The position numbers and the translations under genes are program-made. Of a DNA stretch of 45,446 bases, positions 1 to 45,446 are shown in pieces. The notes beneath the pieces were generated by a model. That model was not told the origin of the DNA. It worked only from the letters and a program-made list of their open reading frames with translations, and ran no database searches. The stretch comes from a virus: positions 1-45,446 of the IMG/VR virus record IMGVR_UViG_3300044908_000046; one strand, given 5' to 3'. Position 1 is the first letter of the stretch, and every line of letters starts with the position of its first letter.

Positions 1-127
1 TCTTTCTAAGGACCTTTTGGGTGCAATAGCTATTGCGTCACCAGCATCAAAATCTTGCGTCATGGGTGTCGGATTTTGCGTCACCGGAGCGGAATCTTGC
101 GTCACTGGCTTTTCTTCGTCACGCAAA
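1..127. repeat. Direct terminal repeat, left copy (circular-contig overlap)
   Basis: These 127 bases are identical to the last 127 of the window (45320-45446). The repeat lies inside one reading frame, which continues correctly only when the two copies are merged. That indicates a circular or circularly permuted molecule of about 45,319 bp. A length of 127 equals a commonly used assembler k-mer, so an assembly overlap is more likely than a true packaged terminal repeat. Confidence 0.95.
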
Positions 128-396
128 CTTTGCGTCATGCCAGCGATACTGTATCCGTTTACTCCCTTTGGTCCGCCGTCAGCAATTACCTCAAGCTCAC
201 CGGAATCTCTCAATTTCTGGATGCAGTACTGGACCCCGCGTTCGCTCATGCGGGTTTCGCGCGCAAGCGTGGCTATACTAGGCCATGCCCCGGTGCCATC
301 AGCGTGGGCGTGGTTCGCAATCATCAAGAGTGTGAGTAGGTAGCTGCCTTTATGTTGGGAATGTTCTGTGACAAACGATGCTGCTTGCCAGCTCAC
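1..396 (-). CDS. Replication initiator-like winged-helix protein, N-terminal part (gene crosses the contig junction)
   Basis: Start and middle of a gene that continues at 45125-45319. Joined, it has 197 codons (196 aa). It begins with GTG at 396 behind a GGAGG site. Residues 1-35 form a hydrophobic helix region. About residues 38-72 are a typical helix-turn-helix (WPSIATLARETRMS, then a recognition helix and a wing ending at SGELEVIADGG). This N-terminal type is shared by phage replication proteins such as lambda O and other helix-turn-helix initiators. From about residue 87 the chain carries repeated M/V-T-Q tripeptides encoded by DNA iterons, and then a charged C-terminus. The role as origin-binding initiator is inferred from the fold and the iterons. 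A purely regulatory DNA-binding protein is the alternative. Confidence 0.8.
   Translation of the reverse strand, partial: MSWQAASFVTEHSQHKGSYLLTLLMIANHAHADGTGAWPSIATLARETRMSERGVQYCIQKLRDSGELEVIADGGPKGVNGYSIAGMTQSLRDEEKPVTQDSAPVTQNPTPMTQDFDAGDAIAIAPKRSLER
23..137. other. Putative replication origin with five iterons inside the initiator gene
   Basis: The octamer TTGCGTCA occurs at 33-40, 55-62, 76-83, 97-104 and 130-137. Spacing is 22, 21, 21 and 33 bp, so the first four lie about two helical turns apart. A perfect 14-bp palindrome (GCAATAGCTATTGC) sits at 23-36 beside the first iteron. Across the junction, 45304-45329 is strongly A/T-rich (about 21 of 26 bases) and could be the unwinding element. 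Iterons inside the initiator gene next to an A/T-rich tract match the layout of ori-lambda within gene O. This is an inference from layout only. Confidence 0.6.
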
Positions 397-506
397 GGCC
401 CCTCCGTGCAAAGGGCGGAAGCCGGAGTGCACGCCCCGGCCCCCAATCCAGTTCCGACCGAAGCAATGAAGCGACCATTGCCGCGCCGGTGTGAGCCTGA
501 GATTTA

Positions 507-713
507 TCACAGCTTTCCGTCTAGCGCAATAGCGGCGTTTGCGGTAAAAACCGCCTCGCGCAAGAGCCGGATCGCCGCGGTCTGGTCCGCGCAATTTGGC
601 GTATTATCAACTATGCACTGGCCCATTTCTTTTGCTTTGGCGCGGATTGCTTCGTACTTCGGAAGCTGCTCTGCGCTTGGTGCGTGATAAGTAAATATGT
701 TGTTGATGTCCAC
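507..713 (-). CDS. Acb2/Tad1-type anti-defence protein (cyclic nucleotide sponge)
   Basis: A 68-aa protein starting at GTG 713, placed 4 bases after a strong AAAGGAGG site. The sequence has the Acb2/Tad1 helical-hairpin pattern. It opens with FTYHAP, then a conserved Gln and Tyr-Glu-x-Ile-Arg-x-Lys-Ala-Lys helix, a central P-N-C segment, a helix with repeated Ala/Leu, and the closing ANAAIA motif. Known members (T4 vs.4/Acb2, Tad1) bind cyclic oligonucleotides or gcADPR signals and so block CBASS or Thoeris. The frame is open to an ATG at 806, giving a 99-aa form with a basic extension, but the ribosome site favours the short form. Ligand specificity cannot be judged. The gene sits directly upstream of the initiator gene in the early operon. 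Confidence 0.75.
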   Translation of the reverse strand: MDINNIFTYHAPSAEQLPKYEAIRAKAKEMGQCIVDNTPNCADQTAAIRLLREAVFTANAAIALDGKL

Positions 714-3152: not shown

Positions 3153-3511
3153 CAACCCCACCTCGCCCGTGCGCCAAGACGCCCTATTTTCCCAAGATAT
3201 TTTATGGGGTCGCCTTCGATTGCCCGGCGCCTGTTCTCCCAGATCGAAACAATTTCCAAGTGCTCAGGATTAACGCACATTTTATTGCTACACAGATGGT
3301 CGACGGTCATACCTTTTGGGATTTCCTTGTGCATGGCATATGAAAACCTATGCGGGTAAACGTGCTTCCACTTGCCGTCGACTTTTATGGCGAATCCTCC
3401 ATACTCATTACGTTTACAGCCAGTCCACAACCAGCAAGTCGGAGTCTTTTGGACTTGCGCCCAAAACCGGACCTCAGCAGTAGCTACTTTAGAAAGCCTA
3501 GGCAATCTCAA
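3152..3511 (-). CDS. HNH endonuclease (homing type)
   Basis: A 119-aa protein with the HNH_3-like pattern. It has CWLWTG near residue 26, a Tyr/His-rich strand (HRFSYAMH), and then the core VDHLCSNKMCVNPEHLEIVS, with catalytic His of the DH pair and the downstream N-P-x-H. It ends in a basic tail. These free-standing endonucleases cut DNA at an unoccupied site and spread with their gene. The likely start is TTG 3511, overlapping the end of the ERF gene by 14 bases. Its insertion between the recombination gene and the next early gene is typical of a homing intruder. A close relative lies at 42885-43367. Confidence 0.85.
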   Translation of the reverse strand: MRLPRLSKVATAEVRFWAQVQKTPTCWLWTGCKRNEYGGFAIKVDGKWKHVYPHRFSYAMHKEIPKGMTVDHLCSNKMCVNPEHLEIVSIWENRRRAIEGDPIKYLGKIGRLGARARWG

Positions 3512-4373
3512 TCTCCATGCGCTCGCACAGAGTCTTGAAGTCGGCTAGGAACTCCGGCGCAAACTGATAGTACGAGCCATTGCCAAGCTTCGATGGCTTC
3601 TTTTTTGCGTCCACATCCCGCAGGAAGTCGCACACCTTGTTGTCGGCTAGGTACCCATTCACAGCTATATCGCTATTGGGCATAATCTTGATGAAGACAA
3701 TCCGGCGCGCGTCCTGGGATGTGGTTTCCTGCGCATTAGCGCGCATCTCAGCGACTTTCTGCTCGCCAACGGCCTTGGCAGCCACCTTGCCGCGTTCCTT
3801 GGCCGATTTGGCGTCTTCTTTGCTATCCTGCTCGGGATCGTCGCCTGTAGGTATCAGGAAAGCCTTCATCAGCATGTATTTCTCGCTGCCGGTAAAAGCT
3901 TTGTAAAAGCCCTTATCCACGTTATCTTCGCCGACGCCATGCACCACGATGGTCTTTTCCTCGCCAGACTCGCCGTCGGCAAAGGTCCACTCCACCTCAA
4001 TTTCCGTCAGCTGCGTCTTGCGCACAACTTGAATCGGCTGATTGTTGACCCACTTGGTTGTTTCGACTTCGAGCGGCGAGCGCACAACCTTGGTGACGTT
4101 CGGAAAGATGAACAGATGCCGCGAAGCCAGTTCCTTGCGGATGGCATCGGCCAGGTCGGCCTCGGTCACGTAGTCGTACTTGTGGAACTCGTTTCTGCCG
4201 CGCTTGGCAACACGCTCGACCGCGGCCATGACTTCGCAGAGTTTTTGCACCAATGTTTTTGGTTTCGGCTCATCTGCCGGCGTGGCCGCACGCTTGGCAA
4301 TCTCGTCTCTAACCTCTTTGCGATTCGAAAACCGGTGTTCGCCATCGCTAGGAATGACCATTTGTTCGCTCAC
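3498..4373 (-). CDS. ERF-family single-strand annealing recombinase
   Basis: A 291-aa protein matching the ERF superfamily in its N-terminal domain. The helix VQKLCEVMAAVERVAKRG near residues 42-60 is followed by Y-x-Y-V-T-E-A-D-L. The signature GVGEDNVDKGFYKAFTGSEKY and PTGDDPEQ lie at about residues 146-182. ERF proteins (P22 Erf, Sak) anneal complementary single strands in recombination-dependent replication and repair. The Ala/Lys-rich linker (about 185-215) leads to a C-terminal domain I do not recognise. It starts at GTG 4373 in a GTGA overlap with the upstream gene. Confidence 0.85.
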   Translation of the reverse strand: MSEQMVIPSDGEHRFSNRKEVRDEIAKRAATPADEPKPKTLVQKLCEVMAAVERVAKRGRNEFHKYDYVTEADLADAIRKELASRHLFIFPNVTKVVRSPLEVETTKWVNNQPIQVVRKTQLTEIEVEWTFADGESGEEKTIVVHGVGEDNVDKGFYKAFTGSEKYMLMKAFLIPTGDDPEQDSKEDAKSAKERGKVAAKAVGEQKVAEMRANAQETTSQDARRIVFIKIMPNSDIAVNGYLADNKVCDFLRDVDAKKKPSKLGNGSYYQFAPEFLADFKTLCERMEIEIA

Positions 4374-4552
4374 AATCCCTCTTTTCTTTTGTCCAGCTCT
4401 TGCTCGGCTCGGTCGATATGCCGCTCATCCACTTTGCTCTTCTCGTCTTCGATGAACAGCGAAATCCTGTCCTGCATGGTGTCGAGTTCAGACCAAGTTA
4501 ACGGCTCATCCCTGAAGCAGCGCTTACAGGTTTGCGTCAGAATGTCGGCCAT
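4370..4552 (-). CDS. Hypothetical 60-aa protein upstream of the annealing protein
   Basis: Charged helical protein with one C-x2-C pair (TCKRCFRDEPLTW) and a Glu/Lys-rich C-terminus. It is coupled to the ERF gene by a GTGA overlap. I placed the start at ATG 4552, after the upstream stop at 4576. Longer in-frame starts reach 4651 and 4747 but would overlap that gene. Function unknown. Confidence 0.5.
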   Translation of the reverse strand: MADILTQTCKRCFRDEPLTWSELDTMQDRISLFIEDEKSKVDERHIDRAEQELDKRKEGL

Positions 4553-4575: not shown

Positions 4576-4926
4576 TCAAGACACACCCCGCTTCTTCTCC
4601 CGCATTTGGGTTTGGGAGTGATTCTTTGCTATGAAATAGCCAGCCAACCATTCCGCGATGGCCTTGTGCGGTTGCCTGTTGAGAAGCGGGGAACTCAGAG
4701 CAGGGCTTATCAAGGCACAGCGGAACACTGACACGACACAACTGCACCCTCGATTTGCTCTGGAGTCGAGGCCGTGGACCAGCTTGCCAGATTTAGTTGT
4801 TCGGGGAGTTGCATGACCCCTCCGACAAGGGTTGGAAGGGGAGAGTGTCGGCCCTCCCCAACCAAACATCTCACCAAAGCGGTTAAGTGACCGCCGCCTC
4901 ATGAGCTCGCACAAATCTTCTATCAT
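4576..4926 (-). CDS. Doubtful 116-aa open frame
   Basis: The frame begins MIEDLCELMRRRSLNRFGEM at ATG 4926, 9 bases after the last base of GCGCGGAG-like sequence. The middle is Cys/Ser/Arg-rich and not clearly protein-like, although the end (KAIAEWLAGYFIAKNHSQ) looks helical. It fills an otherwise empty 400-base interval. It may be real, broken or spurious. Confidence 0.35.
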   Translation of the reverse strand: MIEDLCELMRRRSLNRFGEMFGWGGPTLSPSNPCRRGHATPRTTKSGKLVHGLDSRANRGCSCVVSVFRCALISPALSSPLLNRQPHKAIAEWLAGYFIAKNHSQTQMREKKRGVS

Positions 4927-4960
4927 CGCTCCGCGCTGACTGCAAGCAAAATCGCTCCCA

Positions 4961-5004
4961 GCGCTAGCTATTACTGATTGGTAAGACGAGGTGTGTTCAC
5001 AAAG
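4961..5004. repeat. Dispersed early-region element, copy 3
   Basis: GCGCTAGC (4961-4968), 19 bases, then GAGGTGTGTTCAC on the plus strand. The GAGGTGTGTTCA part is identical to copy 5. It lies at the stop of the leftward gene at 4997 and, in that direction, ahead of the next gene. No plus-strand gene is expected here. Confidence 0.6.
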
Positions 5005-6739: not shown

Positions 6740-6750
6740 TAGGAAAGACC

Positions 6751-6951
6751 ATGAGCGTTTCCAAGCAAAGGCGCTGGCAGTTGCGGATGATAGCGGATGG
6801 CAGATGTCAGACTTGCGGAAGACCTCGCAACTTGTACATAGCGCAGTGCGACGATTGCAGGGCGCTAGATCAGAGACGGCAAAGAAGAAAGCGCGGCTCG
6901 AAGCCCTGGAAGAAAGGCCATCCCGGCAGGCCACCGAAGACAGCGGCATGA
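6751..6951 (+). CDS. Small basic zinc-finger protein
   Basis: A 66-aa protein. RCQTCGRPRNLYIAQCDDC supplies two C-x2-C pairs, followed by a run of Arg/Lys and a KPWKKGHPGRPP tail. This resembles HNH-like zinc cores without the catalytic residues, or a DNA-binding knuckle. ATG 6751 follows AGGAAAG. First gene of the rightward unit. Confidence 0.65.
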   Translation: MSVSKQRRWQLRMIADGRCQTCGRPRNLYIAQCDDCRALDQRRQRRKRGSKPWKKGHPGRPPKTAA

Positions 6952-40307: not shown

Positions 40308-40952
40308 TCATTTCGGCTCCCTGCTGGCTGGCGTGGACGCACTCCAACCTATACATCCACCACTGGCGTCCCAGTCCATATGGTCCCCATCGTGTCCTCT
40401 GCGTAGATTGCAAACAAAACTGTATTTGATGGCTTCGCAGAACACCCGCTCCGCTGGCGCTGCCGTAGCTGGACGTGTGGGCCTGCCACGTAAAAATGCG
40501 TCGTCCTCAAGAACGTGTTCGGACGGGATACCATCTAAACTTGGATCATTCAACCACTTTCTGAGCTTTTCGATCCCTGCGTCGATATTTCCAGAACCGA
40601 AGTTCTCATCATCGGATGCACACCATTCGTCGTAATCCCTCACTAGTTCAGCCAATACGGTTCGGTGCTCCACTGCCAGTTGATAGCGACTTTTAGTTAG
40701 TGTTCCCGCCTGCGCCCCCTCTGCCGTGACTGGAGGGGTGCAGTCTATTGGGCAACGGTGAGTATTTGCACAACGAGAACAAGTGTTTACCACTTTCCAC
40801 GCTGGCGCTGCCGTGACTGGACGGGCTGCGGCGTGCAGAATAGCGTCAATCACCCATTCGTGCGGTTGGAATGGTTCGGCGTAGTAACTTTGCGGTTTTT
40901 CTTTTGCACAGTAGCGCGCAATCGTTATAGCTTCTTCCCTTGTCATTCCCAT
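40308..40952 (-). CDS. Modular Cys/His early protein
   Basis: A 214-aa protein and the last gene of the leftward unit. Helical segments are joined by repeated Ala/Pro/Thr linkers. It contains a central Cys cluster (CSRCANTHRCPIDC), an acidic helix, and a terminal C-N-L-x2-GH-x-GDH...GGCIGW motif shared with 42661-42888. The linker repeats at nucleotide level suggest growth by duplication. ATG 40952 overlaps the previous gene's end by 10 bases. Confidence 0.6.
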   Translation of the reverse strand: MGMTREEAITIARYCAKEKPQSYYAEPFQPHEWVIDAILHAAARPVTAAPAWKVVNTCSRCANTHRCPIDCTPPVTAEGAQAGTLTKSRYQLAVEHRTVLAELVRDYDEWCASDDENFGSGNIDAGIEKLRKWLNDPSLDGIPSEHVLEDDAFLRGRPTRPATAAPAERVFCEAIKYSFVCNLRRGHDGDHMDWDASGGCIGWSASTPASREPK

Positions 40953-42664: not shown

Positions 42665-42888
42665 CCCGCCCTCCAGCCTACACAGCCGCCGCTAGGATGC
42701 GATTCCTGATGGTCCCCGGCGTGGCCATGCGGCAAATTGCAAGTAAAGCCGCCCTTTTCGGCTCCGCAAAGCCCCCGCGGCGGCAGGAAGGCTAGAATGT
42801 CTACGTGGAAATTTCTCTCCAAAATTAACAAGGCCTCTGTGGGCACGCGCGCCAAGTTCTCTCTTAAATCTAAGTTGCTTCGGCTCAT
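42661..42888 (-). CDS. Small C-x-H-x-H motif protein
   Basis: A 75-aa protein. ATG 42888 overlaps the HNH stop as ATGA. The C-terminus LCGAEKGGFTCNLPHGHAGDHQ...GGCVGW matches the terminal motif of 40308-40952 and a small Cys/His pattern common in phages. Probably metal-binding. Confidence 0.6.
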   Translation of the reverse strand: MSRSNLDLRENLARVPTEALLILERNFHVDILAFLPPRGLCGAEKGGFTCNLPHGHAGDHQESHPSGGCVGWRAG

Positions 42889-43367
42889 GTATTTTGGCCC
42901 CATGACTTTCTTTGGCGCAGAACGTTGCAAATCTTACAATACCTGCCGCCCCTCTTTCCGGGAGGCCGATACGTATTCTCTGGCGTAAAAGCGTGGCCGT
43001 GTTTGCACTGCGTTTTCTTTGCGTTTAATGCTGTAACACTCGTACCTCGCAGGATATTCTCTTTACTGGTGACAGGCTCTAAATGGGCGGGATTCACGCA
43101 CGCCCGGTTGCGGCAGAGATGGTCCAGCGTTAGACCATCCGGTATCGGGCCAACGGTCAGTTCCCAGCAAATTCTAGCGGCTTTACAATAGTGAGTCTTA
43201 TCCCGCCGAAACATCCCATATCCTTGGGTTGTACCTGATAGCCAAGCCCAGCAAGGTCCAAGATCGGGGCGGTACTGTGGAATTTGCCCGTTCTTATCCA
43301 CTTTCGGCCAAAACCGTGTCTCCAAAGGGATGCTTATAAATTTGCCGTTACTTCCGAATGCCCGCAC
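42885..43367 (-). CDS. HNH endonuclease
   Basis: A 160-aa protein. N-terminal strands (FWPKVDKNGQ, CWAWLSGTTQGYG) precede the HNH core LTLDHLCRNRACVNPAHLEPVTSKEN. A terminal zinc site (CKHGHAFTPENTY, YCKICN) is also present. GTG 43367 follows GAGAGGAGG. It shows the same core as the enzyme at 3152-3511, so both may descend from one family that spread within this genome. Confidence 0.85.
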   Translation of the reverse strand: MRAFGSNGKFISIPLETRFWPKVDKNGQIPQYRPDLGPCWAWLSGTTQGYGMFRRDKTHYCKAARICWELTVGPIPDGLTLDHLCRNRACVNPAHLEPVTSKENILRGTSVTALNAKKTQCKHGHAFTPENTYRPPGKRGGRYCKICNVLRQRKSWGQNT

Positions 43368-43719
43368 GGACCCTCCTCTCTGCCTTGTCGCTCCGAATCA
43401 TCAAATGCCGGGCGTGGTGGCATCGGCGGCAACTCGCCAGCGTGCCATCTTCCGTATCACAGCCTCCCTGGCCAAGGGAAGGCTCGTGGTGCAGTTCCAT
43501 GGTCTCCCAGGCGATGTTTCGCTGGCAGCGGCCTCCCAGGACGCCCCGCAGGCGCATCTCACAGCATCCCCGGCTCCGCTCAAAGACCTTTTGGCGCAGG
43601 GCCGCCATATCCAGGCCAAACAGGAACGTTTTGCCCCGCCTGACATAGGAACGGGGGTCGGCGAAGCGCGCCGCGGCGGTGGCTTCCCGGTCGATGATCT
43701 GTGGGTGCTTGCGTTTCAC
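43348..43719 (-). CDS. HNH endonuclease
   Basis: A 123-aa protein of a different HNH branch, RQKVFERSRGCCEMRL, then CQRNIAWETMELHHEP, then TLASCRRCHHARH. The zinc Cys pairs and the HH catalytic centre are visible. This type also appears as a packaging-linked nuclease, but here it is in the early operon. GTG 43719 overlaps the upstream stop as GTGA. Confidence 0.75.
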   Translation of the reverse strand: MKRKHPQIIDREATAAARFADPRSYVRRGKTFLFGLDMAALRQKVFERSRGCCEMRLRGVLGGRCQRNIAWETMELHHEPSLGQGGCDTEDGTLASCRRCHHARHLMIRSDKAERRVRAGIRK

Positions 43720-44033
43720 AGCCACTCCTTGAGCCAAGCCTTGGCACGCCCTGTTTTCACGTCGTTGGTCGAGAATCTCAAAAGTCTGTACCCCATCATT
43801 GTGGCTGTGTTGGCCTTCTCATTGTCCGATCCGTAGCCTTTGCCATGTTTCCCCGCGTGATAGCCGTCCACTTCGATGGCCAGGCTGGTAAAGACCTCGG
43901 GCCGGTCGCAGAGAAGGAAGTCGAACCGCCATTTACGCTTTTCATCGAAGCGGTACTCCGTCACATACTCAATCCCGAGCTCGGTCAAGAACTTGGCCAT
44001 GAGGATCTGCCCGACGTTAGGGCCGCGCTTCAT
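43716..44033 (-). CDS. PD-(D/E)XK-type nuclease (DUF559-like)
   Basis: A 105-aa protein. A helix (GQILMAKFLTELGIEYVTEY) leads to a strand WRFDFLLC (the PD-type Asp), then AIEVDGYHA (the E-x-D/K-type strand), YGSDNEKANTATMMGYRLLRF and the terminal NDV. This resembles very-short-patch/DUF559 endonucleases or phage resolvase-like nucleases. ATG 44033 overlaps the upstream stop as ATGA. It could process recombination intermediates with the ERF protein. Confidence 0.7.
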   Translation of the reverse strand: MKRGPNVGQILMAKFLTELGIEYVTEYRFDEKRKWRFDFLLCDRPEVFTSLAIEVDGYHAGKHGKGYGSDNEKANTATMMGYRLLRFSTNDVKTGRAKAWLKEWL

Positions 44034-44206
44034 GGCTTCTCGGCCCGCTTCCGCTCCGCCTCGCATGCCGGGCACTTCTTTTCTCCGCCAATATCCAGCA
44101 TGGCTCGGAAGTGCTTGGCGCAGTACGCCCGAGTCGCCGCTTGTTTGTTCGTCGGCGTTAGCGCCTCTGCGCTGTCCTGATGGGCTGGCCAGTGCTTATC
44201 GCTCAT
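44030..44206 (-). CDS. Small 58-aa Cys-pair protein
   Basis: ATG 44206, after GGGAGAG, begins a helical protein (SAEALTPTNKQAATRAYC) ending in CPACEAERKRAEK, a C-x2-C pair with a charged tail. It is coupled to the nuclease gene by an ATGA overlap. Function unknown. Confidence 0.6.
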   Translation of the reverse strand: MSDKHWPAHQDSAEALTPTNKQAATRAYCAKHFRAMLDIGGEKKCPACEAERKRAEKP

Positions 44207-44847: not shown

Positions 44848-45128
44848 TTCAACCTCAAAATGTGCCACGCCTTGCATTTAGGACAAGGCTCACAAATCCA
44901 TCGTCTTGATCTGGAATTCTTACGCAAATCCCACAACTCATCTTCGGCTTGCTGCTTAGTGTATGGCTTACGGACGCAGCAATACTTTGAATCTGGAAGT
45001 CCTCGTATGACGGTGATACCGCGCTGCACATGCAAAGCATCCTGTGGCGTGCTTCCCCTCTTGCGACGTTTCCCTAAGCTAGGCTTCTGCCGCAAACGGT
45101 CTTCAACCGAGATGTTATAGCCGCTCAA
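44838..45128 (-). CDS. Small Cys/His early protein downstream of the initiator
   Basis: A 96-aa basic protein. TTG 45128 overlaps the initiator stop as TTGA. It has an Arg/Lys-rich start (RLRQKPSLGKRRKRGS), a middle strand region (YCCVRKPYTKQQAEDELWDL), and CEPCPKCKAWH at the end, a common phage zinc knuckle. A longer frame runs up to 45224 but overlaps the initiator gene. Confidence 0.55.
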   Translation of the reverse strand: MSGYNISVEDRLRQKPSLGKRRKRGSTPQDALHVQRGITVIRGLPDSKYCCVRKPYTKQQAEDELWDLRKNSRSRRWICEPCPKCKAWHILRLKWA

Positions 45129-45446
45129 GGTATATGCTCGTCCTCGTAAACCCTCTCGCCGGTCGAAGGCGAAATCAAAAACCGCTGGCCAGCATCGTCT
45201 CTCTGCCATGCTCGGTCGTTCCACGCGTCGGCTCTTTCTCTTACGATTTTGATTCTTTCCTCGTATGGAAGATGGGAAATAGAAAGCGCCGAAGGCGCGG
45301 ACGTTTCTTTTATTTCAATTCTTTCTAAGGACCTTTTGGGTGCAATAGCTATTGCGTCACCAGCATCAAAATCTTGCGTCATGGGTGTCGGATTTTGCGT
45401 CACCGGAGCGGAATCTTGCGTCACTGGCTTTTCTTCGTCACGCAAA
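45125..45446 (-). CDS. Replication initiator-like protein, C-terminal part (continues at bases 396-1)
   Basis: C-terminal part of the junction-crossing initiator gene, ending in TGA at 45125-45127. Bases 45320-45446 duplicate 1-127. The unique part, 45125-45319, encodes a charged tail rich in Arg, Glu and Asp. It includes a probable helix (YEERIKIVRERADAW) and a short stretch (RFLISPSTGERVY) near the end. In lambda O the C-terminal domain contacts the helicase loader. Whether that applies here cannot be seen. The stop overlaps a TTG start for the next leftward gene. Confidence 0.75.
   Translation of the reverse strand, partial: LRDEEKPVTQDSAPVTQNPTPMTQDFDAGDAIAIAPKRSLERIEIKETSAPSALSISHLPYEERIKIVRERADAWNDRAWQRDDAGQRFLISPSTGERVYEDEHIP
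45320..45446. repeat. Direct terminal repeat, right copy (circular-contig overlap)
   Basis: Exact copy of bases 1-127. Iterons and gene segments within it should be counted once only. See the left copy for interpretation. Confidence 0.95.

Follow-up and report, generated by a model that had tools for sequence, protein, structure and literature searches.

The virus DNA analyzed here, a record of 45,446 nucleotides (the window), most probably contains the lambda-like, theta-type iteron origin of a tailed phage with a circular (or circularising) genome, located inside the gene of its initiator; from sequence comparison we put the probability of this reading at about 0.87. What the sequences show is the gene with its iterons, a palindrome, an A/T-rich tract and selection at the DNA level, together with a layout that recurs across the homologous genes.

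Bases 1–127 are identical to 45320–45446, which gives a circle of 45,319 bp, and the TTGCGTCA copies at 45352–45423 are the terminal repeat counted a second time. A single ORF crosses the closed junction on the minus strand (396 to 1, then 45319 to 45125), with a GTG start and a product of 196 aa. The features of this region and of the leaders discussed below are listed in Table 1.

Table 1. Features on the window, with strand (minus, or a point where no strand applies) and supporting evidence.
Feature	Positions	Strand	Evidence or remark
Initiator gene, first part: GTG at 396, winged-helix domain (HTH_36), iteron array	1..396	-	Junction-crossing ORF
Initiator gene, last part, continuing from base 1 over the closed junction	45125..45319	-	ORF; homologues L003 and L004 unbroken here
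Iteron 1 (130-137) with inverted arm: TGACGCAA-AGT-TTGCGTGA, 19-bp near-palindrome	119..137	-	L004: TGACGCAAAGTTTGCGTCA
Iteron 2, read V-T-Q	97..104	-	Octamer match and ORF
Iteron 3, read V-T-Q	76..83	-	Octamer match and ORF
Iteron 4, read M-T-Q	55..62	-	Octamer match and ORF
Iteron 5 (TGACGCAA), read G-D-A-I in another frame	33..40	-	L003 and L004 show the same frame shift
Perfect 14-bp palindrome GCAATAGCTATTGC, gene nt 361-374, overlapping iteron 5	23..36	.	Exact in L003, L004 and L132
A/T-rich tract, part 1, candidate DNA-unwinding element	1..28	.	Top A/T 40-mer of the gene
A/T-rich tract, part 2, over the junction	45308..45319	.	Same 40-mer
127-bp terminal repeat of 1-127	45320..45446	.	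Circular-contig overlap, no second origin
Putative structured leader of the initiator mRNA: hairpin 1 444-417, loop 433-428 CGTGCA, partner TGCACG 410-405	397..444	-	
Putative second leader copy: loop CCGACA 4851-4846, partner TGTCGG 4827-4822, ribosome-binding site 4821-4817, ATG 4814-4812	4812..4867	-	

The encoded protein matches HTH_36 of Pfam (E 2.3e-7; 31 bits, with the cut-off at 25) and, among the PHROGs, phrog_1032 "replication initiation protein" (E 1e-16), phrog_8540 (E 2e-13) and phrog_391 (E 3e-10). It has the N-terminal winged-helix profile of the HTH_36-type phage replication initiators (PHROG 1032 / 8540 / 391); DNA-selected iterons inside the gene are a trait found here and absent from these profiles. 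AlphaFold modeling predicts a winged helix-turn-helix (wHTH) with pLDDT block means of 83–97 over residues 1–90, and pLDDT below 50 from residue 96 on, inside the array. The repeat-bearing stretch is thus predicted to be disordered, fitting a linker that could tolerate DNA-driven sequence. A PDB sequence search gave no match, and a fold search returned generic winged helices only (MarR, RbkR, LexA). Assignment of the protein to lambda O was rejected: it has no Phage_rep_O (PF04492) match at E 1, where lambda O itself matches at 5.7e-36, and hhalign of the family profile A3 against lambda O gave a probability of 0. The segment behind the array aligns poorly to L003 and L004, and by eye the C-termini look as if swapped at the array between these proteins and that of the window. 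The C-terminal halves of L132 and L140 carry a domain of unknown function (phrog_15768), to which the window protein has no match.

Five iterons, a 14-bp palindrome and an adjoining A/T-rich tract over the junction, inside a winged-helix gene, had been described in an earlier sequence-only reading, and all were confirmed. The repeat reads TTGCGTCA on the window strand (spacings of 22, 21, 21 and 33 bp from the lowest coordinate) and TGACGCAA on the gene strand, where the five copies lie at gene nt 260, 293, 314, 335 and 357. Including the terminal repeat, the window has 10 octamer matches against 1.98 expected, a number reached by 0 of 100 shuffles; one extra copy, at 4532, is no more than chance. 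An inverted arm is found at iteron 1 only, with no visible inverted half at iterons 2–4. The A/T-rich 40-mer (gene nt 369–408, 70% A+T) ranks first of the 551 40-mers in the gene and lies directly beside the array; genome-wide, 154 of 45,319 60-mers equal the best A/T-richness of the 60-mers at the tract. Of nine genes examined, seven (the window, L003, L004, L132, L135, L018 and lambda O) have their A/T-richest 40-mer behind the last iteron, whereas L133 and L134 depart from this rule.

The two closest relatives, L003 and L004, encode proteins 72% and 52% identical to the window protein; the octamers are unchanged in both and follow one another at 33, 21 and 22 bp, one 21-bp unit being absent. 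L132 keeps the palindrome exactly though its octamers have changed. For three related genes, compared pairwise, we took codons encoding the same residue in both genes and counted third-position differences inside and outside the octamers and palindrome. Inside, third positions never differ (0/17, 0/14 and 0/14), whereas outside the array they differ in 47/91, 42/70 and 49/83 (Fisher p about 2e-5 each). Since third positions are frozen and the motif persists through changes of frame, the repeats are selected as DNA, with the peptide repeat as a by-product.

Homologues were collected from IMG/VR and two Acidobacteria MAG contigs by protein searches blind to repeats. From 58 homologous genes, 13 near-identical ones were removed, leaving 45 non-redundant genes, window included. 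The 58 do not include the copies L137–L139, L160–L161, L165–L167 and L200–L202, nor L157, L164 and L168, which come from the same contigs as L188, L199 and L187, nor L171–L172; the initiator L018 and lambda O were tested separately. Synonymous codons were shuffled 200 times within each gene with the peptide kept, and repeated 7-mers were counted. The repeats exceed peptide needs in 38 of the 45 genes (at most 1/200 shuffles reaching the observed count; 37 of 44 without the window). As the homologues are not independent lineages, this count overstates how often the feature arose. The remaining seven show no clear repeat excess in this test. Among control ORFs of the same contigs, 4/97 pass a slightly stricter version (0/200), and lambda O, the positive control, has 51 repeat pairs versus 17.8 (0/200 shuffles). 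Octamers with at least three direct copies within 180 nt occur in 29/45 homologues versus 7/97 controls, and 24 of these 29 arrays use more than one frame. Exactly 22 bp is the distance at 44 spacings among the arrays; as this shifts each copy to the next frame, the arrays run through all frames. The octamer varies by homologue group (TGACGCAA, GGGTGTCA, CGGGGTGC, AACGGGGT), and its position behind the wHTH is constant.

The first scan of genome contigs gave nothing and the second the two Acidobacteria MAG contigs, and with 3/396 genomes the phylum scan does not settle the host. Among the matches listed, an IMG/VR scan for the iteron pattern gave mostly chance or other systems, with tblastn to the window protein finding a known relative only. 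An 18-mer search with iteron plus palindrome retrieved the two relatives already known, together with an unrelated gene present twice (L005, L007). An A/T-rich phage gene, maybe a replication gene, on the minus strand of L009 (about 6745–6797) has four TGACGCAA copies in its coding region, spaced 11, 22 and 11 bp.

In the mechanism we propose, the winged-helix N-terminus (residues 1–86) would bind the iterons that directly follow in its own gene. Its sites, the first inverted and the others direct at 33, 21, 21 and 22 bp, would lie roughly on one helix face. The resulting nucleoprotein complex would bend the DNA and melt the A/T-rich tract adjoining the last iteron, where the host helicase would be loaded. 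Initiator binding, melting, helicase loading, fork direction and initiation itself are steps that we infer. The scanned ORFs include a terminase, HNH nucleases and an annealing protein of the Erf type, and none of them was recognised as a phage helicase, loader or polymerase; among ORFs with a P-loop-like motif the terminase is the only supported case. Cumulative GC skew with the junction closed, which had been proposed as a check, did not locate the origin: the detrended extremes (9,824 and 39,914) are not at the junction and sit near gene-direction switches. The DnaA box TTATNCACA has 0 matches in the whole circle, and two weaker matches are distant, at 40,902 and 6,050. Downstream of the initiator, on the minus strand, lie a small restriction-nuclease-like protein (43716–44075; DUF559/DUF2726-like below the Pfam cut-offs, phrog_503) and an HNH_3 endonuclease (42885–43367).

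The repeats could instead owe their existence to the protein, if the M/V-T-Q peptide repeat had a function that the DNA merely reflects, perhaps after recent tandem duplication. Four of the five copies do share a frame, two of the spacings equal 21 bp exactly, and one 21-bp unit is missing from L003. The peptide repeat described before, however, holds for those four copies and breaks down at 33–40; the fifth copy is likewise off-frame in L003 and L004, relatives with a 22-bp period pass through three frames, and the stretch is predicted to be disordered. With the frozen third positions and the synonymous shuffles, this frame evidence refutes the peptide as the main explanation, and we consider it very improbable. 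For the same reasons (a fifth iteron off-frame, relatives using all three frames, frozen third positions), the earlier statement that DNA and protein repeat constrain each other did not hold, and on the sequence evidence is to be replaced by selection at the DNA level. An artefact of assembly, created by the overlap of the contig ends, has a negligible chance of being correct: the array does sit exactly at these ends and the terminal repeat doubles its apparent count, but five copies persist once the overlap is removed and the independent contigs L003 and L004 have the same array in unbroken genes, which refutes it.

A further alternative is that the iterons are operators for autoregulation or for a neighbouring gene, with replication starting elsewhere or by recombination. 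Iteron-binding proteins often autoregulate, and the ERF protein (window 3498–4373) would suit the recombination variant. The array, however, lies about 260 nt into the coding sequence, not where a promoter would sit, the A/T-rich tract follows it in most of the genes examined, and the matching protein families are named for replication initiation. We therefore regard operators as an unlikely explanation and an origin inside the initiator gene as the preferred one.

The 48 nt ahead of the initiator start codon can form a hairpin with a 6-nt loop, and the segment complementary to this loop (410–405) lies directly 5' of the ribosome-binding site (404–399). Most relatives with such a leader can form a second small hairpin that contains the ribosome-binding site, and the partner segment falls within its loop or close to it. 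This geometry occurs, with differing sequences, in 8 of the 45 homologues (the window, L003 at 4943–5000, L004, L133–L136 and L140). Visual inspection first revealed the element, and the sequences in which it had been noticed also served for the test, whose limits were set afterwards; on this footing the eight leaders score 36 to 45, each reached by at most 4/200 dinucleotide shuffles, and 1/113 upstream regions of other ORFs, taken as controls, scores 33 or more (34). The scan also scored L141 (65/200 shuffles as good), L198 (0/200) and L204 (1/200), of which the latter two differ in geometry. It found the leader absent in 34 of the 45, including L132, which by eye has a related, different geometry.

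Nine distinct loop pairs were available from the eight homologues (two share one), the second copy in the window and a pair common to L255 and L262. The pairing covaries across these nine pairs: in the six columns every cell pairs, with three or four pair types in five columns; when the partners were re-dealt, full pairing was reached in 0/5000 trials (mean 0.59). A scan of the contigs gave 7 matches with complementary partners versus 2 with reversed ones, and a looser scan gave many scattered matches beyond the leaders. By single-strand folding the stability of the window leader is unremarkable (z -0.85), as is that of the L133 leader (z -0.37), and the other six range from -1.4 to -3.8. Rfam 15 gave 0 matches at gathering score in nine sources and 0 at E 10 for window 380–700; for L262 10500–10850, two chance-level matches fell below gathering. 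A promoter scan at window 200–700 found none. By eye, promoter-like -35/-10 pairs are present upstream of the leaders of several relatives.

A second leader copy precedes another minus-strand start codon in the window (Table 1), and a longer version is found in L255 (3664–3813) and on the minus strand of L262 (10612–10761), about 81% alike over about 175 nt. In these two contigs the leader does not stop at the ribosome-binding site but continues into a conserved block, which includes a CCTCGA/TCGAGG hairpin. This block could encode a short peptide (..TASTPE.IEGAV); as most third codon positions are kept too, it may belong to a larger non-coding RNA. The L262 leader region had no match in INPHARED by blastn. 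The recurrence of the leader at 4812–4867 and on two further contigs suggests that several early operons may respond to one signal or regulator. Downstream of the second copy lies the Erf-type single-strand annealing protein (3498–4373, minus strand; phrog_155, E 5e-32, and Pfam ERF).

We lean slightly towards the view that these leaders represent an undescribed RNA element, in which two hairpins have fully complementary loops of 6–7 nt, the second touching the ribosome-binding site, and pairing of the loops, as a pseudoknot or a kissing complex, would act as a switch on initiator translation and, through it, on replication. Plasmid RepZ leaders offer a precedent for pseudoknot-controlled translation of an initiator. 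Among the papers listed, no title or abstract matched a leader of this kind, which is not proof of absence. The folded leader RNA is the apparently new part of the system and may set the amount of initiator; if true, this would be a new control of phage replication via initiator translation.

For the origin itself, the analogy with lambda has become a tested comparative result across a wide group of little-studied phage initiators. As the repeats are indifferent to the reading frame, the initiator gene itself reveals the origin, and synonymous shuffling of that gene offers a simple origin finder for uncultured phages. The pairs of initiators and iterons with differing octamers are a ready set for studies of co-evolution.

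Origins inside initiator genes are known from several systems. In repABC plasmids, the available text of PMC3155836 places oriV within repC, with an A/T-rich core disabled by silent mutations; the origin inside the initiator gene is as in the window, whereas iterons, as far as that text describes repC, are lacking. One distant homologue (L203) gave a weak match to RP-C (E 0.005, below the cut-off), which is no evidence of membership. Bacillus phage SPP1 resembles the window by layout, with direct repeats and an A/T-rich unwinding element (oriL) within initiator gene 38 (gp38) in the part of PMC6316719 that describes them. According to the same part, SPP1 has its own loader gp39, helicase gp40 and a second origin oriR, none of which was seen in the window. 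The gene of the phrog_270 initiator L018 contains a TTGACGCAA array whose copies are 22 and 48 bp apart, a layout like that of the window. It differs in being a low-GC gene with another best-matching family (phrog_270); it was found by the iteron pattern and is therefore not independent of it. About 30 loci (e.g., L012, L020 and L023) have L018-like spacing, judged on spacing alone.

The arrangement is also that of phage lambda. The lambda protein is of the Phage_rep_O family, whereas that of the window is of the HTH_36 type, and no P-like loader was recognised beside the window gene. As outlined in the available text of PMC5043065, O dimers bind lambda iterons of 19 bp that are almost perfect inverted repeats, whereas in the window the first site alone is dyadic. 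The lambda iterons (L142), like those of the window, use more than one frame. The earlier proposal of a lambda O and ori-lambda layout therefore holds for the arrangement, by comparison, and not for the protein. In the sections of PMC5043065 and PMC7466680 that cover it, the lambda origin maps within O, where a 40-bp A/T-rich region is opened, and its order is that of the window: an N-terminal DNA-binding domain, then intragenic iterons with a period of about 20 bp, then an A/T-rich tract.
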